Shown here: positions 3 through 64,000 of the stretch, in pieces
Layout of the letters: each line of letters begins with the position of its first letter
Numbering within the stretch: position 1 is the stretch's first letter
Source: Hysterangium stoloniferum
Taxonomy: Eukaryota > Basidiomycota > Agaricomycetes > Hysterangiales > Hysterangiaceae
NCBI GenBank assembly: GCA_015178975.1
Contig: WHVD01000001.1
Location: 1,612,001 to 1,676,000 of the forward strand
DNA length: 64,000 nt
Direction: 5' to 3'
Made by a program: the position numbers and the translations under genes
Notes under the pieces: model-generated
The model's database searches: none
Told to the model about the DNA's origin: nothing
The model's input: the letters and a program-made list of their open reading frames with translations, nothing else

Positions 3-1346
3 GCCATTGCTGCAGCAATGGACATGGAAGCCTGGCAAATTGACTACGTTGCAGCATACCTGAATTCACACCCACAAGCAATCATATACATTGAACTTCC
101 AGATGGAGCCAAAGAGGAGGGGAAAGTGGGGCAATTGAACAAGACATTATATGGAACAATGGATGGTGCGTATAATTGGGCAGAAGCATTGAATAAGGAG
201 ATGGGGGAATTGGGGTACTATAGGTCAAAGGCAGATCCAGCCATTCGATCCAGACATGCGAACGGCGATGTCACAATAACAAGCACGTATACAGATGATA
301 CAACAGGAGTCTCATCTTCGAAGGAGGAGGCAGAGCGGGCAAAGGAGGAGTTGGGTTGGACATACAAGATGAAGGATCTAGGCGATGCAAATCTCGTTCT
401 TGGAATTTGCATTGACAGAGACAGAACAGCTGGAACCATTACCATTTCACAACGTGCATATCTCGAACGGGTTTTGGATAGATTTGGAATGAAGGGGTGT
501 AATTTGCGTGGAACACCCTTACCACCTGGCCTGGTCCTTACAAAAGACATGGGACCACAGACAAAGGAGGATCGAGTTTTCATGGCTGACAAGCCTTACC
601 GGGAACTATTGGGTTCACTCATGTACGCTCAAATTGCAACGCGACCAGATCTGTCATACGCAATATCTACTCTCAGCAAATTCACATCGAACCCAGGGCG
701 AACGCATTGGAATGCTCTCACACACGTTCTGCGATATATTCAAGGGACCCTAAACTACAAGATCACATATGGTGGTGACTATACAGACCTCAAACTGATA
801 GGTTATGTGGATGCAGATTACGCTGGGGACACGGACAGTCGCAGGTCATGTTCGGGACACATATTCATTCAAGCAGGTGGACCAACTGCATGGGGAACAC
901 AACATCAGCCCACAGTTGCACTATCCACGACCGAGGCTGAGTACATGGCACTCACGCGAGCGATGAAACAGATCTTATGGATGTACTCAGCTATGGACGA
1001 AGTTGGTTACCCACAAACGAGGCCTGCAACTTTGTGGAATGATAACGCTGGAGCAGTGTCACTAACAAAGAACTCTAAACATCACTCACGCATCAAACAC
1101 ATTGATATACGTTATCACTACATTCGAGAGCGTGTAGAATATGGCGATATCGAAGTACTCCATATCGCATCAAACGATAATCTCGCCGATATGTTCACTA
1201 AGCAGCTCACCCGCATTAAACACGAACAACAATGTATTGCCCTTCGTTTATGCCCAGGAGTACACTCAGCCAGGGAGTGTTGTAAATTGAGGCTCACGTG
1301 TACTCACAACGACTCATCACGACTCATCACGACCCTTAACGACTAA
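3..1346 (+). CDS. Ty1/copia polyprotein, 3' part (reverse transcriptase and RNase H)
   Basis: The frame is open from base 3, so the polyprotein continues upstream of the window and no true start is present. Visible order: reverse transcriptase fingers/palm (copia hallmark LNKTLYGTMDGAYNW, the usual LYGLKQAPRAW region), catalytic YTDD where most copia elements have YVDD, the SLMYAQIATRPDLSYA connection, then RNase H (GYVDADYAGD, STTEAEYMA, WNDNAGAVSLTKN) and the closing HHSRIKHIDIRYHYIRE and ADMFTKQL motifs. No stop or frameshift interrupts 448 codons, so this copy was probably coding recently. In the family, protease, integrase and RT/RNase H come from one polyprotein and make a cDNA copy that is inserted elsewhere. 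The final ~23 codons read into the 3' LTR, which is normal for copia elements. Whether the whole element is intact cannot be judged because gag, protease and integrase lie outside. Confidence 0.93.
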   Translation, partial: AIAAAMDMEAWQIDYVAAYLNSHPQAIIYIELPDGAKEEGKVGQLNKTLYGTMDGAYNWAEALNKEMGELGYYRSKADPAIRSRHANGDVTITSTYTDDTTGVSSSKEEAERAKEELGWTYKMKDLGDANLVLGICIDRDRTAGTITISQRAYLERVLDRFGMKGCNLRGTPLPPGLVLTKDMGPQTKEDRVFMADKPYRELLGSLMYAQIATRPDLSYAISTLSKFTSNPGRTHWNALTHVLRYIQGTLNYKITYGGDYTDLKLIGYVDADYAGDTDSRRSCSGHIFIQAGGPTAWGTQHQPTVALSTTEAEYMALTRAMKQILWMYSAMDEVGYPQTRPATLWNDNAGAVSLTKNSKHHSRIKHIDIRYHYIRERVEYGDIEVLHIASNDNLADMFTKQLTRIKHEQQCIALRLCPGVHSARECCKLRLTCTHNDSSRLITTLND

Positions 1347-31029: not shown

Positions 31030-31771
31030 TGTTAAGTTCTGAACTGAAATCTGGAAGTTTCATGGAGTTTTCTGGTAATTATTCCAAACACTTTCCAGGA
31101 ATGTCCTACAGAGTCCCCAGGTAATAGTCCAGGGAGTTTCTGGGGATTAGTACAAGGAGTTATCAGAATAATTACCAGAAGTACTGAGATGGACTTGGCT
31201 TCAGCTTATGTGCTGCACCCTCATACACTCATTTGGGTGTCCATATTTTGAGCTGACAGAATGCCTACAAGGAAGATGTAGATTCCGGAGTTCCTATGGG
31301 AGTTCTGGGAATTGAGTGTGCAGACAGACAAGAGGAGTAGAGACTGGATCAGGATGTATTTGGGTTGTAACTAGTTCAAGATTCAAACTAGAGAGTAAGT
31401 ACATGAGTATGGAAGACTTATATAGACTTTAAAATGTAATAATACCAAATCTGGTAATAATGAGGGACAGAACTATTAAACATAAAATGAAACAAATAAC
31501 TACTAAACTGGGAATTTGGGACGGGATGGAATGGAAGTGGAGAATGAACTAGACAGGTCATTTGACCATAATGGGAGTGGGGTTCTATGCTCTGTTAGAG
31601 GGGTTCTGGGAGTCCAGTCAGAGTCCGGTGACTCCCTTCCATCTCCTCACATTAGCCAGATACTCCTGAGTTTGATTCACCTGTTCAACTCCCAATCATA
31701 GAATGTGGTGCCATCCTTCTCTTTCCAACTTTTAGCTCCTACTGCATGTATGCATGGTGTTCCATTATCAC
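31030..31771 (+). repeat. Gypsy LTR-like fragment interrupted by the LTR element at 31772
   Basis: TGTTAAGTTCTGAACTG resembles the start of the LTR at 43963 (TGTTAAGAACTGAAAACTG). It also contains GGACTTGGCTTCAGCTTATG, which is shared with the LTRs at 43963, 49640 and 61953. Its far end is not defined. Confidence 0.5.
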
Positions 31772-32189
31772 TGTAAAGAGTCGTGTATTCGGACTGCTCT
31801 GTATACGAAGAATATCGACTATTGCAGTGCGATATTAGAGAGAGTGAGAGAGAGAGAGAGCTAGATGATGAGTTCAAAGCCTGAGATATTAGTTAGCTCA
31901 GATAGTTCAGATAATGCTACTTATGTAGTAGCTGGCACGTTACCCTAATCACCACTCGTAGTAGACTTAGTTTAGTGTCTTACGAGTGGTGGTTTCTGGG
32001 TAAAAAGTGTGTCTCTCTATTTGGTGCTGAGTGCACCCACAAGTATACACAGCACTTCGAACTAATGAAATGGTGCACTATTCGAAGAATGTAAAGAATA
32101 GGAAAATATGAGTGAAATATGTAAAATATAAATAAAATAAAAGGAGTATTTTACTTTAATAAAACCATGGCCAGGGCATATCCCTCACA
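31772..32189 (-). repeat. LTR family 2, 3' LTR
   Basis: 418 bp, TGTAAAGAGTC ... CCCTCACA as written on +. It differs from its partner by eight substitutions and one 8-bp change in a GA run. Confidence 0.9.
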
Positions 32190-32557
32190 GTGCCCCCCCA
32201 GTTCAAAGGGATGTGCTATACCAAGAACCGGGAAGTCTCTGGAATGCTCCCCAGGCATCTTGTGTGGACCCCCCCCAAACCGCAAAGTGCCAAGATCCCA
32301 GTGCTCAAAGAGAGGTTGGTAGGTCTAGAGGCAGTAAGGGAAGATGTCAATGTAGAAGGAGGGGTGGGGAGAAAAAAAATGGATCCATTCCTTTCCTTCT
32401 GGTCCCTAATTGAGCACTCCTCTGGTCCTGCAATCCTTCAAACAGCAAGTAGGCCACACGATAGCCTCCTAGACACCATCAGAATCACCTCCTCCTTAAA
32501 TAAGCACTGGAGGAGGTTCATAATGCTTCACTGCAGCCAGGTAGTATAAGGCTCAGG

Positions 32558-32853
32558 ATTAGGATCTTGCCATGCTGCTAGTCTATGGGACTTAGCAGCA
32601 TACACGATTTTGTGAGCCTTCCTGGCTGGGATGTGTACCCTACCATGGACCACTCGATAGCCTCCTGGACACTGCCACATTGTCTCCTTCCAGGGCATGA
32701 GGTGTTCTTCATAGTAGATGTCCTGTAGGCAGACAGGCTGTCACATAACTTTTGGGCAGTGTGTCTTGGGATTAGGATCCTTCCATGCTGCTAGTCTATG
32801 GGACCTAGCAGCATGCATGATGCTGTGAGTCTTCCTGGCCGGGATGTGTACCC
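32558..32853. repeat. Direct repeat pair inside the LTR element
   Basis: 32558-32641 and 32769-32853 share most bases (CATGCTGCTAGTCTATGGGA, TTCCTGGC, GGGATGTGTACCC). No function recognised. Confidence 0.7.
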
Positions 32854-33279
32854 CATACCCCCTATACCACCCCCCTAATTTTTGTTGTGATATTGCTGTT
32901 CCGCAACAATCTCACAATAAAAATTTCTTCACACATGGTCAGGTTGCAGCCCATGTTCCCAAAAGGTCTAGCCTATTGCAGGTCTAGAATGTGTCCAGTA
33001 ATGCTTCAAGTAGGTGGGTGAGTCTGAAGGAAAAAGAAAAAATCATGGAATCAACTGAGTTCAGTATGATTGTGATAATAGACCTAAATATGGCACCAAG
33101 GTTGGGTCACATAGTTCTGTCCAGACATATCTGATCTAGGTGCTACCCTCCAAGTTATTGAACCTTTGCAGCTAGTCGACCACTGACAAAAGTAAAGCAG
33201 AGGGGTGGAGGGGAAAGGGTCCATGTGCATTGGCAAGAAGTTGTCAGGGCACAGTGTTGCACAACCAGGGGGCTCGCAA

Positions 33280-33674
33280 ATATGACTGCGAGTGACAAGC
33301 ATGTTGGTGTGCCTCAAGCGTTTGACCACGAGTGACGAGCGCATTGGCGCACCTCATGAGTCCGACCGTGAGCGACGAGCGTGTTGGCATGCCTCACAGG
33401 TCTGACCGTGAGTGACGAGTGTGTTGGCGTGCCTCGTGGGTCTGACCGTGAGTGATGAGCACGTTGGCGCACCTCGAGAGTTTGACCACGAGTGACAAGC
33501 ACGTCGGTGCACCTTGTGGGTCTGACCGTGAGCGACGAGCACGTTGGCGCACCTTGTGAGTCTGACCGCAAGCGATGAGCACATTGGCATGCCTCGCGGG
33601 TCTGACTGTGAGTGACGAGTGCATTGGCGTGCCTCACGAGTTTGACTGTGAGTGATACATTGGTGTGCCTCATT
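33280..33674. repeat. 40-bp minisatellite, about 10 copies
   Basis: Units start (T/C)(C/T)(T/C)GACCGTGAGTGACGAGC and end GGCGCACCTCGNGNG; about ten consecutive units of exactly 40 bp, the last one shortened. It is GC-rich compared with its flanks. Because 40 is not a multiple of 3, three units (120 bp) make a 40-residue repeat, and on the minus strand all three frames are open across it. Confidence 0.9.
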
Positions 33675-33739
33675 GAAAAGTGTCACGCGCCGAACCTGAA
33701 CCAACCAAACCTGAACTTGTGGACGCCCTGTTGCAAGGC

Positions 33740-33990
33740 ATCACACACCAAACCTGAATCTGTGAATGCCTCATTGGAAAGTGTTGCACGCTGAGCCTGA
33801 AAGTCGCGAAGGTCCAGAAAGGCAAAGCTCCAACTTTTTCTGTGCGAAGCTTTAACCCTGGGGAAGGCTAAGAGTAGGTGATGTTGAACAGTGTGCGCCG
33901 AACCTGTAAGTTGCAAAGGTCAGGAGAGCAAAGCTTCGACTTTTTCAGTGCGAAGCTTTAGCAGAGGAGAGGGCTAAGACTAGGTGAGGA
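33740..33990. repeat. Two-copy repeat of about 110 bp
   Basis: Both copies contain GCAAAGCT(C/T)C(A/G)ACTTTTTC, GTGCGAAGCTTTA and GGCTAAGA(G/C)TAGGTGA. It follows the 40-bp array directly. Confidence 0.7.
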
Positions 33991-34159
33991 TGAAAGTAAG
34001 GACGGTGTGAAGGCTTCATTGTGGGGTGACACAGCCCTACATCCACATGCATCCACAAGTTTTGGAGGTCAGTCCTTTAGTCTGTTTTGCGCTTGACTGT
34101 TGACCTCACGTCCTTGTCATTTGGAAGGACTGGGGTAAGGTACGTCCACCTCTTTGGCA

Positions 34160-35110
34160 TCACCTTGCTCAGTGATGCCGTCCACACACTGACTTTGCAC
34201 ACCTGCACAGCATACCCTCAACCCGCCATACAGCATGCTCTCAGACCACACCCATGTCACACTGGTGCACCTGCACACTCATGCACTCCACTTGCACACT
34301 TGCACATCTTCAAACTGCACCCAAACACCTTCAAACCATGCCCACACACTGTACTTGCACACTCGTGCAGCATGCCCTCATCCACACACATGGACCACAC
34401 TTGCGTACCTGTGCAGTGTACTGGCATACCTGCGCGGCGCAGTCGTGCACCCATGTAGTGTAGTCATGCCGTCGTACACCTTCGTAGTCACGCCATCATG
34501 CACTCGTGCAGTTGTGCGTCACGCACTCATGCAGTTGCGGCTTCGTGCACTCGTGCACCTGCACAGCATCCTCATGTACCCATGCGGCATACTCGTGTGC
34601 CCACGTGGTGTCCTTGTGCACCTGCACGGTGTCCTCACACGCTCATGCAGCATTGTCGCATGCCCACGCAGCGTTCTCATGCACCCGTGCATCGTCCTCA
34701 GGCACCCATGCAGTATACCTTCAAACCCCACCCACACACCTTCTAACCACACCTTCTAACCCTGCCCACGCACTGCGCCCTCAAACTGTGCAGTGCACTT
34801 GTGCACTCTCGCAACTTGTTGCACGCCTGCACACCTGTGCACCCATGTGCCTGCACTGCCACACCCTCATCCTCGCATGCATCATGTGCTGTGTGCCACA
34901 TACCCACATCCACGCACTGCTGACCCACATCCACACACTGCACACCCATACACCCACACCTACTGCACACCCATACACCCACACCTACCGCACACCCATA
35001 CACCCACACCTACCGCACACCCATACACCCACACCTACCGCACACCCATACACCACACCTACCGCACACCCATACACCTGCACCTACACAGCTACATGCT
35101 CACGCACTGC
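34160..35110. repeat. CAC-rich low-complexity block ending in a 25-bp tandem repeat
   Basis: Degenerate CACxCATGCAGC/GTGCAC units run from 34160. From about 34945 a clean array follows with unit CACACCCATACACCCACACC plus TACCG, about five copies. Long open frames on both strands here are by-products of the repeats and should not be taken as genes. Confidence 0.85.
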
Positions 35111-36397
35111 ACCCATCTCTCGACCGTTTCATTGGTGAGACTGGTGACACAGTCGTTTGCATGCTCTTGCTGGCTGTAGGTGATGATCCATATATCCCTT
35201 CTCCTATACCCCCCTACTGCCCCCCACACCACATAATTCTCAAGGGAGCATCCCGGGTCAAATGGGAATGTATCCATCCTCGGCTTGGTCCATTGAGGGG
35301 TATCCAGTGTGGTGTGCCATGCCAGGGTCCTCTGCGAAATTGGGATGCAGAGAGCCTTGGAAATCCAACTCACATATCCTGGGCCTTCCTTATCATTGGA
35401 ACCATCGTCACTTCTGACTGCACTATTGTATAACTTGGCCAATGGGGAACTGGAGTCAACTTTGACTGGGAGATGGTGAGTGTCGTTCAGATCTGATAAT
35501 GATGTTTTATTGACACTCATATCATTAAGCAGTTCAGTATGCATCTTCTCACATTCTCTGTGAAAAGGACCAGACCTGGAGGACAAGGGCATTTGTGCTG
35601 GCTCATTGAACCTACTGAGCAATTCCTCCATCATCTCATTGCATCTCTCCAGGTTTTGCATCAGTCTTGCTTGGAGAGCAAAGTAGGTGAAAGGTGCATT
35701 CAAGGATTTATGGTATAAGGATTCCTCCAAAGTTCAAATGTACATGAAGTTCGAGTCGACTTTTGGCAGGCTGCAGTCCCCTCCAAGTAATACATGAAGA
35801 ATCTGTAGCAGATCATCGTGCATGCGAAGCAAATCGGTGAACAGGATGAACAGCCACCTTGATACCCGCTATTCCTTTTTCTTGGAAAGATATCACTTCA
35901 TTTGACCACTCTGGGATTGACCTTGTCACCTCATCAAGAGTTCCAGGCCAAGTGAATAAGTTGTGTGCTGATATGATGCCATGATACCGACCTAGCCAAA
36001 CTGTTACTGTTGTAGGCATGGATGGATACCTCATCCTATAATCCTTCATGGCAGTGGCAACTTTGTTCCTCGAGATTCGTGAAGCATAATACATGTCCCA
36101 CTGCTCATCGATGGGTTCCTCATAAAGTGGTTGGCCATAGTGTTTGAGCATAGCTTGTCTTGGTGGGAAGACCAGGGGATCCTTTGTGAAACTGCAAGCA
36201 TTTTGCCTTTCCAAGGGACTCGACTGCTCGAAGGTCGAGTTACCTTCCATTTGACCAGATTCATGATGCTCAGTATATGAGGAGTTCCAGCTAGCATTCT
36301 GTGAAGTCATGAGTGTTGACACCCTCACGGCTGTGTAGCTGGATCCATTGAGCGTTTTCGTGAATTTCTCCATATCAGTGGAGCTTTTGTACTTCAA
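35092..36397 (-). pseudogene. Gag-like open frames of the short LTR element
   Basis: Two minus-strand frames in series: 36397-35813 (194 codons; includes WDMYYASRISRNKVATAMKD) and 35730-35092 (212 codons; includes LMQNLERCNEMMEELLSRF, a possible coiled coil). The second frame also reads upstream to about 35830 except for a TGA at 35736-35734. They lie where gag is expected, just inside the 5' LTR. I do not recognise a capsid or zinc knuckle, so 'gag-like' rests on position. Confidence 0.5.
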
Positions 36398-36436
36398 ATT
36401 TGATAGTTAAAATAAAATTTTCTTCATAGGGAAAGA

Positions 36437-36457
36437 ATGGTCTGGCTCGGATCACCA
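36437..36457 (-). promoter_or_regulatory. Probable primer-binding site of the LTR element
   Basis: Read on the minus strand immediately after the LTR, the sequence is GTGGTGATCCGAGCCAGACC. The TGG start is what pairs with the CCA end of a tRNA primer; the tRNA was not identified. Next to the other LTR the same strand ends in a G-run suited to be the plus-strand primer. Confidence 0.5.
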
Positions 36458-36458
36458 C

Positions 36459-36868
36459 TGTAAAGAGTCATGTATTCAGACTGCTCTGTATACGAAGAAT
36501 ATCGACTATTGCAGTGCAATATTAGAGAGAGTGAGAGAGCTAGATGATGAGTTCAAAGCCTGAGATATTAGTTAGCTCAGATAGTTCGGATAATGCTACT
36601 TATGTAGTAGCTGGCACATTACCCTAATCACCACTCATAGTAGACCTAGTTTAGTGTCTTACGAGTGGTGGTTTCTGGGTAAAAAGTGTGTCTCTCTATT
36701 TGGTGCTGAGTGCACCCACAAGTATGCACAGCACTTCGAACTAATGAAATGGTGCACTATTCGAAGAATGTAAAGAATAGGAAAATATGAGTGAAATATG
36801 TAAAATATAAATAAAATAAAAGGAGTATTTTACTTTAATAAAACCATGGCCAGGGCATATCCCTCACA
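36459..36868 (-). repeat. LTR family 2, 5' LTR
   Basis: 410 bp, partner of 31772-32189, followed on + by the ATCAC target duplication. It contains the inverted repeat described separately. A third family member is at 59836-60235. Confidence 0.9.
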
Positions 36869-36873
36869 ATCAC

Positions 36874-44859: not shown

Positions 44860-47100
44860 ATGACCATAGGCTCAGGGTCAAAACCCTTCCCAGTTAGGTT
44901 AACAGTTGCGCCCATGTCGGTGCCAAGTGGTACGGCGAACACGAAGGAGCGTCGGCGTGTACTCGAGCAGAAGAAAAAGGCACGTGAAGAGGAGGAGTGG
45001 TCCACCAAGAGGGAAATATTTTCTTTGCCAAAACTGATGGCCAGGCCTCCCGGTTGTGCTTTCCTTGGAGCACAAGCCACTTCCACTCAAGGATGGCTTG
45101 GAAGTTATGGCAAAAATCCTACAAATATTATAGTGGATTCTGGTGCAGATATTTCATTGATATCTCACTCTACATTATCTCAACTCGAAAATCCTCCAAA
45201 AATAAAAAATGGACAGAGAATCAATTTAATTCAAGTAACTGGAGCCTCTACAATATCTGGGTTTATTTCCCTGCCTATTTACTTTGATACAAGTGAAGGG
45301 CCAGTCGAATTAATCATTGAAGCTTATGTAGTCAAAGGAATGACTACTCCATTCATTATTGGAAATGATTTTGCAGACCAATATGCAATCTCAGTGATCC
45401 GAGGAGAGGAAGGTTCAATATTGAGCTTTGGCTCTAGTGGAAGGTCTATCAAAGTTCAAAATTCTATTGGACCTTTATTAAAGGATGAAAGAGGTGAAGC
45501 TTTCCAAGTTAATGTCACTCCAAAGCTCTCGGATCTAGCTGGAAAAATTAAGGCTCATAGGAAGAACAAAAAAATAAAGAAATCAATTCAATCTAAGGAA
45601 ACTGAGAATTCAGTTAGGTCTAGCATTAATATAACCATTTCTCCAGAGTCTATAAGTGCTATACCAGTGACCCTGTCCTTCCCAAAGGGATCTGATATAG
45701 CATATATAGAGAAGATATTCTTATCTAACAGAGGAGACCAAGATTTCTATGCAACACCTGATTCTATCATTACTCGGAAAAATCCTCGGTTATATATCTC
45801 CAATTTCTCAAGTTTCCCAGTGCATATACATGAAGGTCAAATACTAGGCTACTCCCATAATCCGGAAACATGGTTAGATAGCCTGGAACATCTAGACAAT
45901 GAGCAACTATCCCATATAAGTGCTCATTCCTATTTGATCAAGAGCATTGCTAGCCAACTTCTCAATCCGAAATACAATTCTATTGATCAGCCTAATACTC
46001 AAGGAGAATCAGAAGGTGGCCCAAAGACAGCAGAAACTCCTCCTGATGATATTAGCTCTGATAAATTCTTTGAAGAGATTGATATCAATAAGGATTTATC
46101 ATTGGAGCAGAAGAATCAACTAAAGGCTATCTTATGGAAGAATCGATTAGCCTTTGGATTAGATGGAAGATTAGGCCACTATCCTGCCAAGGTGGAGATA
46201 AATCTTAGAGAAGGAACAAGAGAAATTTCCCGACCTCCATTCTTTGCCTCACCTAAGAATAGAGAGATTATTAATGAGCAGATGGATAAATGGGTCAAAT
46301 TACAAGTTATTGAGCCTTCCAAAAGCCCTTGGGGTGCTCCTGCATTTATCATTTATCGGCAAGGAAAGCCCAGGATGGTAATTGACTTCAGGCAACTTAA
46401 TGCTCAAGTGATTCCAGATGAATTTCCACTGCCTCAGCAAGATGATATATTACAAGCATTAACTGGATCTCAGTGGTTATCTACACTAGATGCATTAGCC
46501 AGTTTTACTCAATTGGAAATGGCATCAAAAGATAAAGAGAAAACAGCTTTCAGAACACACAGAGGGCTTTATCAATTCTTGAGAATGCCCTTTGGATTCA
46601 GAAATGGCCCAGCAGTCTTCCAGAGAGTGATGCAGAATATCCTAGCCCCATTCCTCTGGATATTTGCTTTGGTCTACATTGATGATATAGTCATCTTCTC
46701 TAAAACCTTTGAAGATCATTTAATGCATACAGAATCAGTCCTCAAAGCAATCATTGCTTCAAAAATGACCTTATCTCCCTCAAAATGCCATTTTGCCTAC
46801 CAATCACTTCAATTATTAGGACAGAAAGTCTCTAGACTTGGCTTGTCTACTAATAAGGAGAAGATAGATGCTATTCTACAATTAGAAGAACCCCGAAATG
46901 TTCATGAGCTTCAAACATTCTTGGGAATGATGGTCTATTTCTCAGCATTTTATGCTTGGATTGTCAACCTGTTATTCTCATTACTCAAAAGGCATTTGAA
47001 GAATGCTCCTGCAATTCTTTGTGACTGGAAAAACAAAAGAAAGAGTGCACAGCTGCCATCCGAGACTCATGGAGGTCTCACTGGCCGACTTGGCCTCTAA
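44860..47100 (+). CDS. Gypsy gag-pol open frame, chimeric and truncated
   Basis: One 746-codon frame. Residues 1-55 (MTIGSGSKPF ... EQKKKAREEEEWSTKRE) look like the charged gag start found after family-5/family-3 type LTRs. From about residue 65 it is a pol polyprotein: retroviral-type protease (NIIVDSGADISLIS, about 88-100) and NDFADQYAISV. Reverse transcriptase follows (WGAPAFIIYRQGKPRMVIDF, STLDALASFTQL with a catalytic Asp, LRMPFGFRNGPAVFQ, catalytic YIDD at about 607, FLGMMVYFSAFYAWI). It then runs into an unrelated C-terminus and stops. RNase H and integrase are absent: only about 470 bp remain before the next LTR. Protease and RT look undamaged. The product could make cDNA at most, and integration would need help. 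Confidence 0.88.
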   Translation: MTIGSGSKPFPVRLTVAPMSVPSGTANTKERRRVLEQKKKAREEEEWSTKREIFSLPKLMARPPGCAFLGAQATSTQGWLGSYGKNPTNIIVDSGADISLISHSTLSQLENPPKIKNGQRINLIQVTGASTISGFISLPIYFDTSEGPVELIIEAYVVKGMTTPFIIGNDFADQYAISVIRGEEGSILSFGSSGRSIKVQNSIGPLLKDERGEAFQVNVTPKLSDLAGKIKAHRKNKKIKKSIQSKETENSVRSSINITISPESISAIPVTLSFPKGSDIAYIEKIFLSNRGDQDFYATPDSIITRKNPRLYISNFSSFPVHIHEGQILGYSHNPETWLDSLEHLDNEQLSHISAHSYLIKSIASQLLNPKYNSIDQPNTQGESEGGPKTAETPPDDISSDKFFEEIDINKDLSLEQKNQLKAILWKNRLAFGLDGRLGHYPAKVEINLREGTREISRPPFFASPKNREIINEQMDKWVKLQVIEPSKSPWGAPAFIIYRQGKPRMVIDFRQLNAQVIPDEFPLPQQDDILQALTGSQWLSTLDALASFTQLEMASKDKEKTAFRTHRGLYQFLRMPFGFRNGPAVFQRVMQNILAPFLWIFALVYIDDIVIFSKTFEDHLMHTESVLKAIIASKMTLSPSKCHFAYQSLQLLGQKVSRLGLSTNKEKIDAILQLEEPRNVHELQTFLGMMVYFSAFYAWIVNLLFSLLKRHLKNAPAILCDWKNKRKSAQLPSETHGGLTGRLGL

Positions 47101-48849: not shown

Positions 48850-49603
48850 GGCAGACTGGCGTAGAATTGGTGGCGGAGAGTGGGATTGCCCCACTGAGAA
48901 CGAGCTGGAAGATTATTGAATTGGACAATGTAGTCCGTGATGCACTGCATGTCCTTCATACAAAAATTTGTGAGACTGTTCTTGGCTTCTCCTGTTGGGT
49001 CATATGGGCCAAAGTTGGTTTCAAGCTCCTCAACAAAAGCATCCCAATCTTCAAGCCAAAGCGGCTCTTCCTCAGAAAGTCCGTACTAAAAGCCAGTTCA
49101 AACCATTTCAATGCGGATCCCGACAAGTACACAAGTGCATAGTTGACTTTTTGGGAGTCCATGGAGAATGCGGTGGATCGATCGGGGAAATTGAAGTGAC
49201 ATTGCATGAGGAAAGTAGAGAGTTTGTTTGGGTTGGAACCCGTGAAGGGTTCTGGAGCATTGACCTTTGACTGTGGGGGTTCCAGATCTTTCTTTTTGCC
49301 TTCTCTGAGCATATGATTTATCAACCTTTCCAAAGTGATTGCTAAATACTCAGAGGCAGGATCCAAAAGCAGCGGTCGATCGCTGGACAGAGGATTTTCG
49401 ACACCTTTTCCCTTGTCAGGTGCCACAGATTCGTCCTCGTGCTCAGATTCGTCCTGGTTTTCTGGGACTTCTTCAATACAGGCTTCTTCCATGGGTTCTG
49501 GCTGGTCCAAGAGTGTCTAACTGGTATACAAAGTTAATGGGGAATGAAGAGTCGACGGTCCAGGTAATGATGCCTGTGCGTGCACTTTTCTTCTTGGTGG
49601 CAT
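48850..49603 (-). pseudogene. Gypsy gag, truncated by the neighbouring LTR
   Basis: On the minus strand it starts MPPRRKVHAQ at 49603 and has a TAG at 49519-49517. It continues LLDQPEPMEEACIEEVPENQ, then KVNAPEPFTGSNPNKLSTFL (the gag capsid start typical of gypsy) and CHFNFPDRSTAFSMDSQKVN. After one shift near 49010 come FGPYDPTGEAKNSLTNF, CITDYIVQFNNLPARSQWG and LRHQFYASLP. There it is cut by the LTR at 48849, mid-gene. Gag would form the particle in which reverse transcription occurs. The rest of gag and the zinc knuckle are missing. Confidence 0.85.
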
Positions 49604-49639
49604 ATTGAAAACAATCTGCGAGTCTTAGTCAAAAAATAC

Positions 49640-50521
49640 TGTTAGGGTACATACATGGCAGGTCTCCAGAGAAACCCGCAGAATATCCGGTAGGACTTGG
49701 CTTCAGCTTATAGGCTACACCCTCGCGAGATCGTGTTGTCCAATTTCAGACAGGTGGATGGGAATCCCGGGAAGTCCAGGTTCATGGGTCAAGGGGTTGT
49801 AGGTTGGAGGTCGTGGGTCGAGAGGTCGAGAGTTGAGGTACATCAGTAAGAGAGATAGATATGCCGGAGCCCATGGGCTCCGACTAGCATGAGCGGTGTG
49901 ATTCAAGTAGGAGTTTAGAGTGGAAAATGTATTAGGTTACTGGGGGGAATCTAAGCCAATTTTCTGACTGGATTGTATGTACAACATCTGCCAGACTATA
50001 TAGACCGTGGAATGCATGACATACTAAATCCAGTAATAATGAAACGAAACTAGCAAAACATAAAATGAGAATAGTAAACACCAAATTTGGTGTTAGGAAT
50101 GGGATGGAACAGAGTGGAGTCCGAATTGTGACAAATTATAAACCATAACGGGAAATGGAGCGGGAGCGGAGTCTGAATCATGATAGGTCATTTGACTAAA
50201 ATGGGAATGGGGCTCTGTCAGAGGGATGATGGGTTTTCTGAGCGGGGTCCAGTGACTGATGCGTGGGACAAGGTTGGACATACTGTAGACAGGGACAGAG
50301 TCCAGTGGGTATTCCGGTGACTGAAACACAACATAACAAAGTCGAATGTAGACAAGTCTGATGTACAGAGTCCGGTGGGAATTCTGATAACAAAGTCAAA
50401 CGTAGACAAGTCTGATGTACGGAGTCTGGTGGGAATTCTGGTAAACTGACAATTGGTGCATATAGGGTGCGGGTGTGTATAAGTTAGTGCCCAGAGTCCA
50501 GCAGGAATTCCAGTTGTAACA
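49640..50521 (+). repeat. Gypsy LTR, family 3, copy A
   Basis: 882 bp, TGTTAGGGTACATAC ... CCAGTTGTAACA, closely similar to 61953-62774. The flanks do not show a clean 5-bp duplication, so it may be joined to other element fragments. An LTR-like fragment in the other orientation (GCACATAAGCTAAGTCAAGT) begins at 50541. Confidence 0.8.
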
Positions 50522-55849: not shown

Positions 55850-56864
55850 ATGTCTAGATCTACAGCCGAAATATCCATAGGGTGCCCCGGCGAAGCGGAC
55901 GTCGAGTTTTGGTATAAACATCTCTGCGATTCTGCCGCTTCAGCAGACGACGGCCATGTGATAGCTGGTACGAGAGTAGTAGAGCTACGGCGGATGAAGG
56001 AAAAGAATACGTCCTCAGAGCATGAATACCTCATTGCTAAGCTTTCCCATGCTGACGGCAACACTCGCTATCTTCGCATCGAGCGATTTGCGGAGGGCTA
56101 CAATCCCGCCACTGCCGGCCAACAATTCAGGCATCACGTCTCGCCGTCGATAGATTCATTCAAGACGCGTCCAGCTGCAGACATGGTATTCACGGCCGAC
56201 GGGTGGCCAGGTCGCGACATCGTCCTCGAAAGAGTAGACATCAGCAAGGCGAATATAACCATCCTCGACCTCGGTATAGCTGCATTGGTAGTCAGGCTGA
56301 ATAATGAAGACTATCAGCTCCTCAAGAGACAATGCTATTGGTTCTCTGACATGGTCTTGAGAGTGTTAGAGAAGGCACACAAATTTGACGTGAACAGGTC
56401 TTTGTCTAAGGCTGTCGAGGAGGACAATACCTGGCTCAACCAACAATTCAGTCCCGGTGGGACGTGGGCCGGGTTTCCCCTGCACCAACGAAGAAAGGAC
56501 CATGTTGACGCTCTCGCGAAGAAATTTCAGGAGGAATATGAAAGAGTTCATCATCAAGTGCGTGTCGTGGATATGGGGATTTGTTGTGGATGCTTATAGC
56601 TGGTGACAGATCCGCGAAGCACAGGAGCGCCGCGAGGATGAGCGTAGAGAAGTTAGGGAAGAAGGTAGGGAAGAAGGTAGGGAAGAGGGTAGGGAAGAGG
56701 GTAGGGAAGAGGGTAGGGAAGAGGGTAGGGAAGAGGGTAGGGAAGAGGGTAGGGAAGAGGGTAGGGCGGAGGGTAGGGAAGAGGGTAGGGCGGAGGGTAG
56801 GGAAGAAAGACGACAATTGCAGGCCAAGATAGAGGAGTTACAGAGGGCTAACCATATGAAGTAA
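55850..56864 (+). CDS. Uncharacterised protein with C-terminal (GREE)n repeat
   Basis: Two exons, 55850-56557 and 56610-56864, intron 52 bp, in phase; 320 aa. The N-terminal 236 residues look like a globular domain (DVEFWYKHLCDSAA, YLIAKLSHADGNTRYLRIERF, ILDLGIAALVVRLNNEDYQL, VEEDNTWLNQQFSPGGTWAG) that I do not recognise. The C-terminus is IREAQERREDERREVREEG followed by repeated Gly-Arg-Glu-Glu, then LQAKIEELQRANHMK, which should form a highly charged helix ending in a short coiled coil. Start chosen at MSRSTAEISIG; the frame is open upstream to an ATG at 55715, but the added 45 residues are hydrophobic and unlike the rest. No function is proposed. Confidence 0.7.
56650..56806 (+). repeat. 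12-bp coding minisatellite
   Basis: GGGAAGAGGGTA and close variants (GGGAAGAAGGTA, GGGCGGAGGGTA), about 13 copies in frame, encoding Gly-Arg-Glu-Glu (or Gly-Arg-Ala-Glu). Because the unit is a multiple of three, copy-number change alters length without a frameshift. Confidence 0.92.
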
Positions 56865-60340: not shown

Positions 60341-60469
60341 GTGGTTTGGACTAGACATGATAAAGTATGTTGGAAAATATTTCAGTGATTTTTACAATTT
60401 TATCTACTGGGGTATAAGCTATACAAGTTGAAACTGCAAAACATTGGATATGTTTTGTAAGTCACTGTA

Positions 60470-61610
60470 TCAGTCACCGGAACACCTGCCAGAACCTGCT
60501 CCTGTCTATTGCCGACCTTGTCCCATGTATCAGTCACTGGACCCCACTCGGAAAACCCAACAGCTCTCTAACTGAGCCCCATTCCCATTATGGTTAAATG
60601 ACCTGTCACGATTCAGACTCCACTCCTGCCCATTCCCATTATGGATCTACGACCTCTCATGTTTCGGACTCCACTCTGCTCCGTTCCATTTCTAACACCA
60701 AGTTTGGTGTTTATTTATCTTGTTTTATGTTTGCTAGGTTAGTTTTCATTATTACTGGATTTGGTATGTTATTGTCACGAATCGAATTTTACTCAATAAA
60801 GTCGAATAAACAATTGAAGAATATTCAACAATATCGAATAAAGATGCCTCATTCTATGAAGTATTAATTTGTCCTGTTGATAAAGCATGAGGCAAAGATA
60901 GGACACAGAGGCTCACGAATAATTAAGTCAAAGAAAATCTCAGAGAAAGTTTGATGATTATATAATACAGTAATAATATAATATAATACAGGTTTTCTGA
61001 CTGACTTCCTTCGTTCCTATCATCATCCTTATATACTATATATCATTTACCTATAATGATAATATGATATCAAAGTGAAATCATCAATGACATCAAAATG
61101 AGACAAGTCGAAGATATTGTCAAAGAATAGTCAAGTCAGAAGTCAAGTCGGAAATTGAGTCAGAAAGTTGAAGGAATGTTGAAGAAATGTCGAAGAAATA
61201 TTAAATTGAATATTATCGAAATTTGAGTTTGTACATTCGTGACAGTTATTCATTCCACAGTCTATATAGTCTGGCAGATGTTGTACATGCAATCCAGTCA
61301 GAAAATCAGCTTAAATTCCCCCAGTAATCTCAAGTACATTTTCCACTCTAATCTCCTCTTTGAAACACACCACTTTACCTTGTCGGAGCCCACAGGCTCC
61401 AACCCATCTATCACTCAACCTCCAACTTAGCTATCTCGACTCCCTGACCTCTTGATGCACGAACCTCACCCGGACTCCCTGGGATTCCCATCTGCCTGTT
61501 TAAAATTGGACAAGACGATCTCACGAGGGTGCAGCCTATAAGCTGAAGCCAAGTCCTACTGGCTTTCCCATAGGTTTCTCTGGAAACCCTCTGTGTACAC
61601 ACTCTTAACA
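60470..61610 (-). repeat. Gypsy LTR, family 3, copy B (reversed, truncated)
   Basis: Reverse-complement match to the family-3 LTRs, ending ACTCTTAACA at 61610. Its left part is missing: similarity starts at the Tc1/mariner edge (CAGTCACCGGAACACCTGCC). It is split by the solo LTR at 60773-61244. Confidence 0.8.
60773..61244. mobile_element. Solo LTR, family 4
   Basis: 472 bp, AT-rich, with perfect 10-bp inverted ends TGTCACGAAT / ATTCGTGACA and the 5-bp duplication GTTAT (60768-60772 and 61245-61249). Removing it restores the family-3 LTR sequence around it. Confidence 0.9.
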
Positions 61611-61952
61611 CAAACTCATATCAAGTCTTGATGTGTTGAGAGACAAGAAGGGGTCTTTTGGCCTTCACCACAGCCTTCAAATTCTCCTTCTTCAATGCAT
61701 TGTGAATTGTCTGTGTGAAGACATTGAGGGAGGTGGGACTTGGCCTGAGGGGCATTATCTGTAACATTTTGAGACAAGAATATGAAAGGATTGAGTCTGT
61801 ATATGCAGCTCAGTGAGTGAATAACTTTCATTGTACATTATAGTACCTGTATATGCAGCTACAAGGTGTTTTATAAGTAATAGAATAATAGTAAATGATT
61901 GCACACATACCTCAGTGAGTGAATAACTTTCACTGAGGTATATGGTGAATTT

Positions 61953-62774
61953 TGTGTCCTTACACGGTGGGTCTCCGGAGAAACCTGTGGAATATCCGGT
62001 AGGACTTGGCTTCAGCTTATAGGCTACACCCTCGCGAGATCATGTTGTCCAATTTCAGATAGGTGGATGGGAATCCCAGGGAGTCTGGGTGGGGTTCGTG
62101 GGTTGAGGGGTCATAGGTTGGAGGTTGTGGGTCAAGAGGTCGTAAGTCGAGATAGGTAAGAGAGATAGATGTGCCAGAGCCCATGGGCTCCGACTAGCGT
62201 GAGCAGTGTGATTCAAGTAGGAGTTTAGAGCGGAAAATGTATTAGATTACTGGGGGGAATCTAAGCTGATTTTCTCACTGGATTGTATGTACAACATCTG
62301 CCAGACTATATAGACTGTGGAATGAATGACATACTAAATCCAGTAATAATGAAATGAAACTAGCAAAACATAAAATGAGAATAGTAAACACCAAATTTGG
62401 TGTTAGGAATGGGACGGAACAGAGTGGAGTCCGAATTGTGACAAATCATAAAAACCATAATGGGAAATGGAGTGGGAGCAGAGTCCGAATTGTGACAGGT
62501 CATTTGACTAAAACGGGAACAGGGCTCTGTTAGAGGGATGATGGGTTTTCCGAGTGGGGTCCAGTGACTGATGTGTGGGATGAGGTCGGACATAGACAGG
62601 GACAGAGTCCAGCGGGTATTCCAGTGACTGAAACACAATGTAACAAAGTTGAACGTAGATGGGTCTGACGTACGGAGTCCGGCGGGAATTCTGGTAAACT
62701 GACAATTGGTGCGTATAGGGTGTGGGTGTGTATAAGTTAGTGCCCAGAGTCCGGCATGAATTCCGGTTGTAACA
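61953..62774 (+). repeat. Gypsy LTR, family 3, copy C (5' LTR)
   Basis: 822 bp, TGTGTCCTTACACGG ... TCCGGTTGTAACA, highly similar to 49640-50521. It is followed by a leader (62775-62987) and a gag frame, so it is the 5' LTR of an element leaving the window on the right. The left edge is chosen from alignment with copy A. Confidence 0.78.
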
Positions 62775-62987
62775 GTACCCTCCCTTTATGCCAAAGTCCC
62801 AAAGAGGCTCTAGACCTCAATAAGGTTCTTGTCAGCTATGCGCATGTGTCAAAAGTCATGTCAGTTACACGTATGTATGTGTCAAAGAGTCAGGTGATCT
62901 GGAAGGTAAGGTTCAGATGCGACGAGCCTATATAAAAATTTGAAAAAATGAAAATTTCTTCTTCTTTATTACCCCCCTCTCGCCACA

Positions 62988-63950
62988 ATGGGACCCAAAC
63001 CAATGCCAAGATGTCCCATGCTGACCGCCAGGCCTTCCACAGCCACTCCATATCGGGCACCACTCAGCACAGCCCAAATACTGGCACAGCGAGAGGAACA
63101 GCACCGACAATGTGAAGAGGCAGAAAAGGAGGCGAGGGAGGTGGAGGAAGCCCTTGAAAGGGAGTACCAGGCGGCCTTGGCCCCTGAGGAAGAGGTGGAG
63201 AGGCAGAGGAAGAGAGATGAGGAGGAGGCTGCATGGGTGGCCACAGAAAAAGCCCAGGCAGCTGCGGACAGGGCCATGGTTACCGCGGGCAAAGTAAGTC
63301 CCAATGTTTCAACTTGTTGAGTTTAACTGACTTAGGATTTTCAGCACAAAGTGACAGAGGTCGAATCGGAGTCCGAGGGGGAGCCAGAGAGCCTCCAAAA
63401 GGTAAGTATCGGGTCTGTGGGAGCCTCCGGGGAACTAACCACATTAACAGAAGGCAAGGAAGGCGGCACCAGTCCACCTACCAACATGGAATCATCCGCA
63501 GTGTTCCAGGTGCAATGACTGGAACACAGAGTGCAATTGAAAGTCCGGGTGGGGACCAGGATGCTACCAGTGTGCACACCTCAAGGCAAGGTGCTCACTC
63601 GTCCACGAGCAACCCACAGGATCCAGGGCATGGGACATTAGTGGGACAGATGGATGTCCGGGTTGGATGACATGTTGGGGCAGATCACCGAGGGCATCGA
63701 GGCCCAGAATGAGTTGCTCCAAAAAAGCAACAAGGTCCAAATTGTAGTGGTGAATGAGCTCCATGGACTCCACTCAGAGTTTTGGAAGTTCCTCTGGAGT
63801 TCAGTGGGTATATTTATGAGGAGCTGCAAGCTGGGAGTTCCGAGGACGCTGGGTCAGATGAGGATGGGGTGCCCGTGGAGGTAGCAGAGCTTCCTCAGGA
63901 GATGGCTGAGGTTGGGCAGAAACATAGCCCCATAAATGTAGATTGAGGAA
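62988..63950 (+). pseudogene. Gypsy gag with zinc-cluster-like Cys motif, interrupted
   Basis: Exon-like segments 62988-63293, 63345-63401 and 63451 onward are in phase with GT-AG introns (51 and 49 bp). The N-terminus is MGPKPMPRCPMLTARPSTAT followed by a long charged helix (REEQHRQCEEAEKEAREVEE). The third exon has HPQCSRCNDWNTECN, a TGA at 63538-63540, then GPGCYQCAHLKARCSLVHE; the CxxC...C...CxxCxxxKxRC spacing is like a fungal binuclear zinc cluster. Beyond 63654 the next open stretch (QNELLQKSNKVQIVVVNEL) is in another frame. Gag would bind the element RNA. The element continues past the window end. Confidence 0.7.
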
Positions 63951-64000
63951 ATAAAATAAAAACTTAATAGTAATAATTTTTGAAAGTAAAAGTAAAGCGT

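Follow-up and report, generated by a model that had tools for sequence, protein, structure and literature searches.

Structure and orientation of the element

The window, the whole DNA stretch of 64,000 nucleotides that was analysed, contains a 5.1-kb element on the minus strand with two LTRs, a broken Gag-like reading frame and several tandem repeats. Its features are as follows, in window coordinates.

31767..31771, no strand: target-site duplication, left copy, ATCAC
31772..32189, minus: the element's 3' LTR, 418 bp
32190..32204, minus: polypurine tract, minus-strand reading GAACTGGGGGGGCAC, abutting the 3' LTR; also in the gag-pol relative
32470..32870 (approximate limits), minus: 3' region, where 14 related copies hold an integrase C-terminus relic
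33262..33735, minus: 474-bp segment holding the 40-bp array, with TGTTGCA at both edges
33255..33261 and 33729..33735: TGTTGCA repeats flanking the 474-bp segment
33283..33655, minus: 40-bp minisatellite, 9.3 units (TRF)
33815..33994, minus: two-copy repeat, 74 nt, spacing 106
34180..34900, minus: CAC/TGC-rich block with diverged 21–23-bp repeats, variable from copy to copy
34940..35087, minus: 25-bp array, 6 units (TRF)
35092..35730, minus: broken ORF, second part (tail of the Gag-like protein)
35813..36397, minus: broken ORF, first part, an N-terminal Gag domain common to gag-pol Ty3/gypsy relatives
36444..36458, minus: primer-binding site region, minus-strand reading G-TGGTGATCCGAGCC, abutting the 5' LTR; assigned by position and conservation
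36459..36868, minus: the element's 5' LTR, 410 bp
36869..36873, no strand: target-site duplication, right copy, ATCAC

Both LTRs have TG...CA ends; with the 5-bp target duplication, the primer-binding site and the purine tract, they identify the element as an LTR retrotransposon. An earlier interpretation made from the letters alone (the sequence-only reading) had noted the LTRs and the ATCAC duplication, and its coordinates proved exact. The positions of the primer-binding site and the purine tract both indicate the minus strand, ruling out the plus-strand element that had been implied. The LTR pair differs at 8 of 410 aligned bases, all by transitions (6 are CpG<->TpG/CpA), and by one 8-bp AG-repeat indel.

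The repeats noted in the interior (4,269 bp) were recovered: the 40-bp array, previously put at about 10 copies (TRF score 291, 76% matches), the CAC-rich block, the 25-bp array (TRF score 268), and the two-copy repeat, which had been taken as ~110 bp long and has copies of 74 nt (80%) at 33815 and 33921. A second two-copy repeat of 85 nt (89%) was found at 32556/32769. The contrast noted between GC-rich repeats and AT-rich LTRs was also present (GC 0.59 in the arrays and 0.57 in the CAC block vs 0.38 in the LTR). The description 'mostly minisatellite' was too strong: the arrays and CAC block amount to ~1.3 kb of the 5.1-kb element, the stretch 33262–35090 to 36%, and repeats overall to 25–36%. 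A coding repeat was rejected because none of the unit lengths (23, 25 and 40 bp) is divisible by three, and an RNA-gene-derived element because no Rfam match was found at gathering scores. A plasmid search led to nothing.

Among the matches listed, the LTR family of the window has at least 42 matches in the genome (40 of 1489 candidates were scored). The primer-site junction could be aligned in 28 of 29 copies (all but L065), reading TGGTGATC in 27 of them and a variant in L047, and the purine tract was seen at 27 of 29 loci, with its G run interrupted in some. The exact LTR–primer-site pattern had 499 matches in the genome; the reversed control had 0. Target duplications of 5 bp were recognized by eye at four of six other LTR loci (L002, L003, L004 and L007) and copy C75 has CTGCT, while no exact target duplication was found at the flanks of C521.

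A Gag N-terminal frame without enzymes

The absence of pol motifs from the interior was confirmed: a tblastn search with a relative's capsid-like, protease-like, RT and integrase proteins gave no match in the window element at E 1. It thus lacks the capsid, protease, RT and integrase of an autonomous element. Capsid-like, protease-like and RT matches were likewise absent inside six copies recovered in full or almost in full (window, C521, C548, C43, C66 and C540). The interior is nevertheless not devoid of coding sequence, as had been supposed, since it holds the broken Gag N-terminal ORF (35813–36397, minus strand). The two longest minus-strand ORFs had no Pfam match except one chance-level row (E 0.073), the Gag-like domain matched nothing in Pfam or PDB, and a single-sequence fold of the window ORF (mean pLDDT 42.9) was too poor for use.

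The origin of the family was indicated by a gag-pol element just beyond the window (primer-binding site at C1:1678540). Its Pol domains are RVT_1, RNase H, Integrase_H2C2, rve and SH3_Tf2-1, with RT, RNase H and integrase following one another in this order. Its Gag N-terminal domain is 38% identical to that of the window element (226 aa, E 8e-53), and its primer site and purine tract are those of the window family. Because these three features are shared, the family can be placed in Ty3/gypsy even though the window element has no RT itself. The linker beyond the Gag N-terminal domain is also kept in C66 (E 1e-7) and C540 (E 4e-4).

Of 30 targets, 15 gave a match to the integrase C-terminus, corresponding to 14 distinct copies that are related; this relic was always in sense, at 29–39% identity (E 3e-6 to 0.013); reversed and shuffled integrase queries gave no match at E 0.1 in the 30 targets. 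The relic was not detected in the window copy itself. The integrase tail of a second relative gave no match as query; this tail does not span the matched part. Descent by internal deletion is supported by these relics, though more weakly than the Ty3/gypsy affiliation is by the shared features.

We conclude that this minus-strand element is probably a non-autonomous LTR retrotransposon of the Ty3/gypsy type, and that its family, present in multiple copies, probably originated through an internal deletion. The non-autonomous LTR family proposed by the sequence-only reading is supported, with the window element as one of several copies. Capsid, protease, RT and RNase H are missing, along with almost the whole of integrase; what remains is the LTRs, primer site and purine tract, which a parasite of a sister element would need, and the first ~220 Gag residues. 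A gag-pol relative would copy the element in trans; we infer this step, because no gag-pol element bearing the window's LTR subfamily was found. Gag-pol was present at 2 of 3 sampled primer sites. When 100 listed primer-site places (of 499) were compared with 80 of the 300 listed RT places, those reaching as far as contig C56, no listed gypsy-type RT lay in the 9 kb downstream of any of them; L076 also has an RT, with a score below those of the RT places listed, and this RT is therefore absent from the comparison. A copia-type place lies 5.2 kb from one listed primer-site place, and another is 8 kb off.

Alternatively, the Gag N-terminal protein could be the working part, the family being selected as a Gag donor or interfering element with the repeats as bystanders. 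In 20 kept relatives the frame spans 371–567 aa from stop to stop, with a median dN/dS of 0.31 over the first 240 codons, and given this constraint the family may be more than a passive deletion. However, the constraint was possibly inherited from autonomous ancestors, the domain is without a match as noted above, and the frame is broken in the window copy, C521, C548 and C75 (open in C43). We regard this alternative as unlikely.

Arrays at one place, differing between copies

Of the 26 copies resolved, 3 contain the 40-bp array. It sits at the same place in C521, and in C42, which is more distant, as in the window copy. In the other 23 the 474-bp segment is absent and a single TGTTGCA forms one exact junction. 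Arrays with 21–25-bp units lie downstream of the ORF, and their units differ between copies. In five copies with single anchors, the repeat block between coding region and 3' LTR varies in both unit and length (~878, 1252, 914, 2138 and 1903 bp), and C66 also has such an array between the same anchors. That other copies also hold arrays in this position, with units and lengths of their own, is thus supported; a fixed set of arrays as a family trait is not, given the rarity of the 40-bp array and the differing 21–25-bp arrays.

These observations bear on whether the window copy is merely a decayed gag-pol element that received one private insertion of unrelated minisatellite DNA, as its broken ORF and the 7-bp repeats edging a segment absent from 23 of 26 copies might suggest. 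The shared place of the 40-bp array in three copies, the shorter-unit arrays between common anchors in six, and the six copies devoid of capsid-like, protease-like and RT matches largely refute this explanation, which we consider very improbable. In the copies fetched whole we did not see the outcome that the sequence-only reading had named as fatal to it, a normal gag-pol interior elsewhere with arrays private to this copy; overall, its interpretation is partly supported.

Relation to known elements

Macas et al. (2009) reportedly described the tandem-repeat regions of plant Tat-lineage elements. In the relevant passages on the plant Tat-lineage Ty3/gypsy elements Ogre and Retand, tandem repeats lie between pol and the 3' LTR (PMC7004042, PMC11963269). 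As described there, they resemble the window family in having arrays of variable unit and length 3' of the coding region and before the 3' LTR, and in being in some cases non-autonomous; in contrast, they mostly retain gag-pol, whereas the arrays of the window family occupy the gag-to-integrase gap. The hosts also differ (plant vs fungus-like), and the likeness is one of way of working only. By this analogy, the window family is likely a parallel to the plant repeat-breeding retrotransposons.

Plant TR-GAG elements are said to have been reported by Chaparro et al. in 2015. They are described, in the relevant passages, as having a gag-derived sole ORF and being copied in trans (PMC8704663). So described, they share with the window family the LTRs, a sole ORF from gag and the need for copying in trans; the window family differs in its large repeat block and in a Gag limited to the N-terminal part, which includes neither capsid nor zinc knuckle and whose frame is interrupted in the window copy. 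A complete Gag ORF of the TR-GAG kind is excluded by the absence of capsid-like matches in the family loci.

In the strict sense, a LARD combines LTRs several kb long with a non-coding interior that is conserved; the LTRs of the window element measure 410–418 bp. LARDs and TRIMs are non-autonomous LTR elements, and LARDs are listed for the mushroom Laccaria bicolor in a paper whose relevant passages leave internal arrays unmentioned (PMC3411680). As outlined there, they resemble the window family in lacking pol and in being copied in trans (presumed for the window family), and differ from its LTRs of only 0.4 kb, its Gag ORF in many relatives and its tandem arrays.

No report of a fungal LTR element with such arrays was found among the open-licence papers listed. 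With this family, a route to new minisatellites that is best known in plants would also operate in a fungus-like genome. A bolder proposal, which we find quite doubtful, is that gag-N-only fungal Ty3/gypsy parasites keep and rapidly renew their arrays (e.g. as a cis-acting packaging signal or a target for methylation), forming a genome-wide minisatellite nursery independent of plant Tat.

Age and growth of the arrays

The element occurs in numerous insertions whose LTRs allow dating and whose arrays differ. It can therefore be asked which of the two, reverse transcription or the chromosome, is the setting of repeat growth. In the few copies examined there is evidence that arrays are inherited through transposition, and one of these copies also holds evidence of growth once inserted. 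In the window copy the 40-bp units differ by 25% per site, compared with 2% for the LTRs. Because the units appear far older than the insertion, the arrays would pass through an RNA stage; judged by these divergences, they are carried along by transposition. The order or register of the 40-bp units could not be matched between the window copy and C521.

The arrays might instead be born at reverse transcription, through strand slippage or switching from one packaged RNA to the other, a mechanism proposed for the Tat elements of plants, rather than in the chromosome. The greater age of the window units fits this possibility, as does the TGTTGCA junction of 23 copies, the expected trace of a jump between 7-bp repeats. 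In copy C66, however, 17 units of 23 bp are identical to one another, whereas the LTR parts of this copy show differences at 11 of 261 positions (4.2%; for no change, P 0.0003), which calls for growth after insertion. We therefore lean against reverse transcription as the birthplace. In our preferred explanation, internal deletion, the arrays would travel within the RNA and could also grow in the chromosome. The C66 array looks younger than its insertion, although the LTR divergence could stem from LTR exchange and the identical units from assembly. C540 shows the opposite (units 10%, LTRs 8/284).

Deamination of methylated CpG may have turned GC-rich units into TG/CA-rich DNA, producing the 'CAC' look. 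Transitions account for 344 of 366 unit differences, and 308 of the 366 fall in columns with CG in some unit. CpG is not depleted in the 40-bp (1.07) and 25-bp (0.94) arrays, so such decay is at most partial there.

Structure of the window element

The boundaries proposed in the sequence-only reading proved exact to the base, with LTRs at 31772-32189 and 36459-36868 and ATCAC on either side. Both arrays (9.3 units of 40 bp and 6 units of 25 bp) were found within the element, together with the two-copy repeat and the CAC-rich block. Its description as mostly minisatellite was an overstatement, the arrays and CAC block making up about a quarter of it. Comparison of the two LTRs shows 8 differences in 410 bases; all eight are transitions, and six lie in CpG context. 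The insertion is therefore fairly young, and the divergence looks mostly like methylation-type decay.

Features of the window element (window coordinates)
36868 to 36459, minus strand: 5' LTR; G-TGGTGATCCGAGCC comes directly after
36397-35813 and 35730-35092, minus strand: ORF, two broken parts
31772-32189, minus strand: 3' LTR; GAACTGGGGGGGCAC comes directly before

The junction of the 5' LTR with the primer-binding site (PBS) aligned in 28 of 29 copies (not L065), reading TGGTGATC in 27 and TGGTTATC in L047. That of the purine tract with the 3' LTR aligned in 27 of 29 loci (not L032 or L038), three of them being one copy (C43) and a few having an A interrupting the G run. Genome-wide there are 499 exact matches to the 16-base LTR-PBS junction, TTYACAGTGGTGATCC, a count that takes in gag-pol relatives; the reversed control gave 0. 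No tRNA that would prime at the PBS was found.

Copies in the genome

LTR, 3' region, repeat block and ORF region each served as query against the genome (111,116,353 bases, 554 contigs), in which the window occupies C1:1612001-1676000; the best 40 of 1489, 277, 174 and 381 candidates, respectively, were scored, and each count is a lower bound. The closest copies among the scored matches were those on contigs C521 (L069), C548 (L070), C43 (L071) and C75 (L011, L072, L043). The C75 copy has the target duplication CTGCT and a gypsy element nested within its repeat block; the second LTR of the C548 copy is truncated, and the five bases flanking the C521 copy differ (CTTTG versus CTTGT), without a matching target duplication. 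Fourteen of the 40 scored ORF places, the window among them, are accompanied within 15 kb by a 3' region whose side and strand are as expected; the remaining 26 may still have one, the two lists holding different top places. Four of six other loci from the LTR search were judged by eye to be solo LTRs with 5-bp duplications. The nested gypsy-like element of C75 (from L072 position 861 to L043 position 1444; C75:96460-104552) carries two LTRs of ~840 bp (95% alike) and an open frame of 1327 aa, and parts of it are similar to window 48850-50390 and 60458-63962.

A Gag-like ORF and its gag-pol relatives

For selection tests, 20 of 34 frames with the domain motif were kept (at least 300 aa, MEGN present, one per copy), 371-567 aa from stop to stop. 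The median dN/dS was 0.31 over the first 240 alignment columns (190 pairs; range 0.16-1.26) and 0.54 over the remaining columns (189 pairs; 0.20-2.36). A comparable set of 20, with L045 in place of L054, yielded only chance rows in Pfam and no match in PDB. The family domain is the Gag N-terminus of a Ty3/gypsy lineage, because it was present at all three fetched PBS-junction sites outside the ORF list (L073, L074 and L075), and two of these, L074 and L075, come with gag-pol parts. The L074 ORF is 38% identical to the family domain over 226 aa (E 8e-53); its PBS lies 2.5 kb past the window end, with RVT_1, RNase H, Integrase_H2C2, rve and SH3_Tf2-1 in pieces downstream, and its purine tract is identical to that of the window element. 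This gag-pol element (C1:1678540 to about 1688230; L074, L076, L078) has its coding region split over several frames. L075 with L077 has RT and RNase H parts and a weak zinc knuckle (E 0.0087, under Pfam's cut-off).

L075 and L074 have a common ORF (54.6%), which we take to be capsid-like; a further ORF is presumably protease-like. Both are named by order and motifs, and neither matched Pfam. L073 has the Gag domain and linker, with no capsid-like match within the 3.6 kb fetched. The L075 linker was recognisable in C66 and C540, ending before the capsid-like part, and no capsid-like, protease-like or RT match was found inside the six copies fetched completely or almost completely (window, C521, C548, C43, C66, C540). 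Matches resembling RT or integrase in L048, L064 and L019 fall outside the LTRs, and rows in L069 and L070 (E 0.39 and 0.59) are at chance level.

Probable origin by deletion

With the integrase C-terminus of L076 as query, 15 of 30 targets showed a decayed relic in their 3' region (29-39% identical, E 3e-6 to 0.013), in every case in the same sense as the element. These represent 14 distinct copies (L012 and L013 being one), which are related, so that the matches are not independent. Reversed and shuffled queries gave no match at E 0.1. The same query detected no relic in the window piece, nor did the tail of a second relative, which is without the matched integrase part, find one. On the plain reading of these alignments, the family would be a gypsy element minus everything from capsid to integrase end.

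The arrays lie downstream of the Gag ORF, at the place of the deletion. Between two conserved anchors the repeat block measures ~878 bp in the window, 1252 bp in C521, 914 bp in C548, 2138 bp in C43 (~0.7 kb without match to the window) and 1903 bp in C75 (nested element subtracted); 694 bp in C66 and 688 bp in C536 are minimal values to the first second-anchor, with the anchor repeated or more arrays beyond.

Unit lengths found by TRF
Window: 25, 23, 21 bp
C521: 24, 21 bp
C548 and C43: 24, 21/42 bp
C75: 21 bp
C66: 23 bp
C540, C536, C42: 21 bp

The one gag-pol relative traced to its 3' end had no TRF array from integrase to purine tract. The 40-bp array stands at the identical place in the window, C521 and C42, and in 23 copies its flanks are joined at one TGTTGCA (22 by script, C75 by sight; L014, L037 and L038 left out). 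Fragments were also found at C49, C546, C475 and C530; at C49:123088-123505 a 40-bp-array-like one lies beside a 25-bp-array-like one on the opposite strand.

Age and decay of the arrays

The 40-bp units of the window are older than the insertion and would have been carried through RNA, because they differ by 25% per site versus 2% for the LTRs. C66 has 17 identical 23-bp units, against 11 differences in 261 positions between its LTR parts; this array should be younger than its insertion, barring LTR exchange or units evened by assembly, because ~8 changes were expected in it (P 0.0003). Such growth after insertion would be a single case and no rule, since the 21-bp units of C540 are 10% different (LTRs 8/284), and C75 has 5 identical units and 32 others that are 15% different.

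Transitions make up 344 of the 366 differences between the window 40-bp units, and 308 of the 366 lie in columns (24 of 40) that belong to a CG in at least one unit. CpG is depleted in the 3' region (0.13), the ORF region (0.33) and the CAC block (0.62; TpG 2.54, CpA 2.04), and not in the 40-bp (1.07) or 25-bp (0.94) arrays. Because of these transitions and regional ratios, the CAC-rich appearance is best explained by partial decay of GC-rich units.

Proposed mobilization and known systems

The proteins would most likely come from a gag-pol relative, with LTRs, primer site and purine tract most likely recognised in trans, a step that we infer; the arrays would most likely be copied along with the element, and their length may change at copying and later. 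The RT places listed yielded no gag-pol element belonging to the LTR subfamily of the window element; the L076 RT scores below those listed.

Plant Tat elements (Ogre, Retand) are described with arrays between pol and 3' LTR (PMC7004042, PMC11963269), and plant TR-GAG elements as moving with Gag alone (PMC8704663). Laccaria LARDs are on record, with no arrays mentioned in the passages on them (PMC3411680). Our literature search found no fungal counterpart of such an array-bearing element.

Other features

At C35:921821-927058, a PBS junction of the window element's lineage is followed 5.2 kb downstream by a copia-type RT place, probably by chance or nesting. Other retrotransposon parts occupy window 18-1346 and 44860-47100 (copia-type RT, RVT_2, and gypsy-type RT, RVT_1, within a 746-aa ORF), a 12-bp array of TAGGGAAGAGGG lies at 56654-56806 (12.8 copies, 93% matches), and one ORF has a Nup84_Nup100 match, which together with genome size and element content points to a probable fungal source. 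The genome is very retrotransposon-rich (1270 RVT_2 and 3086 RVT_1 first-look candidates), and open frames of equal length recur among its RT candidates (e.g. 1416, 1373, 1302 and 1304 aa).
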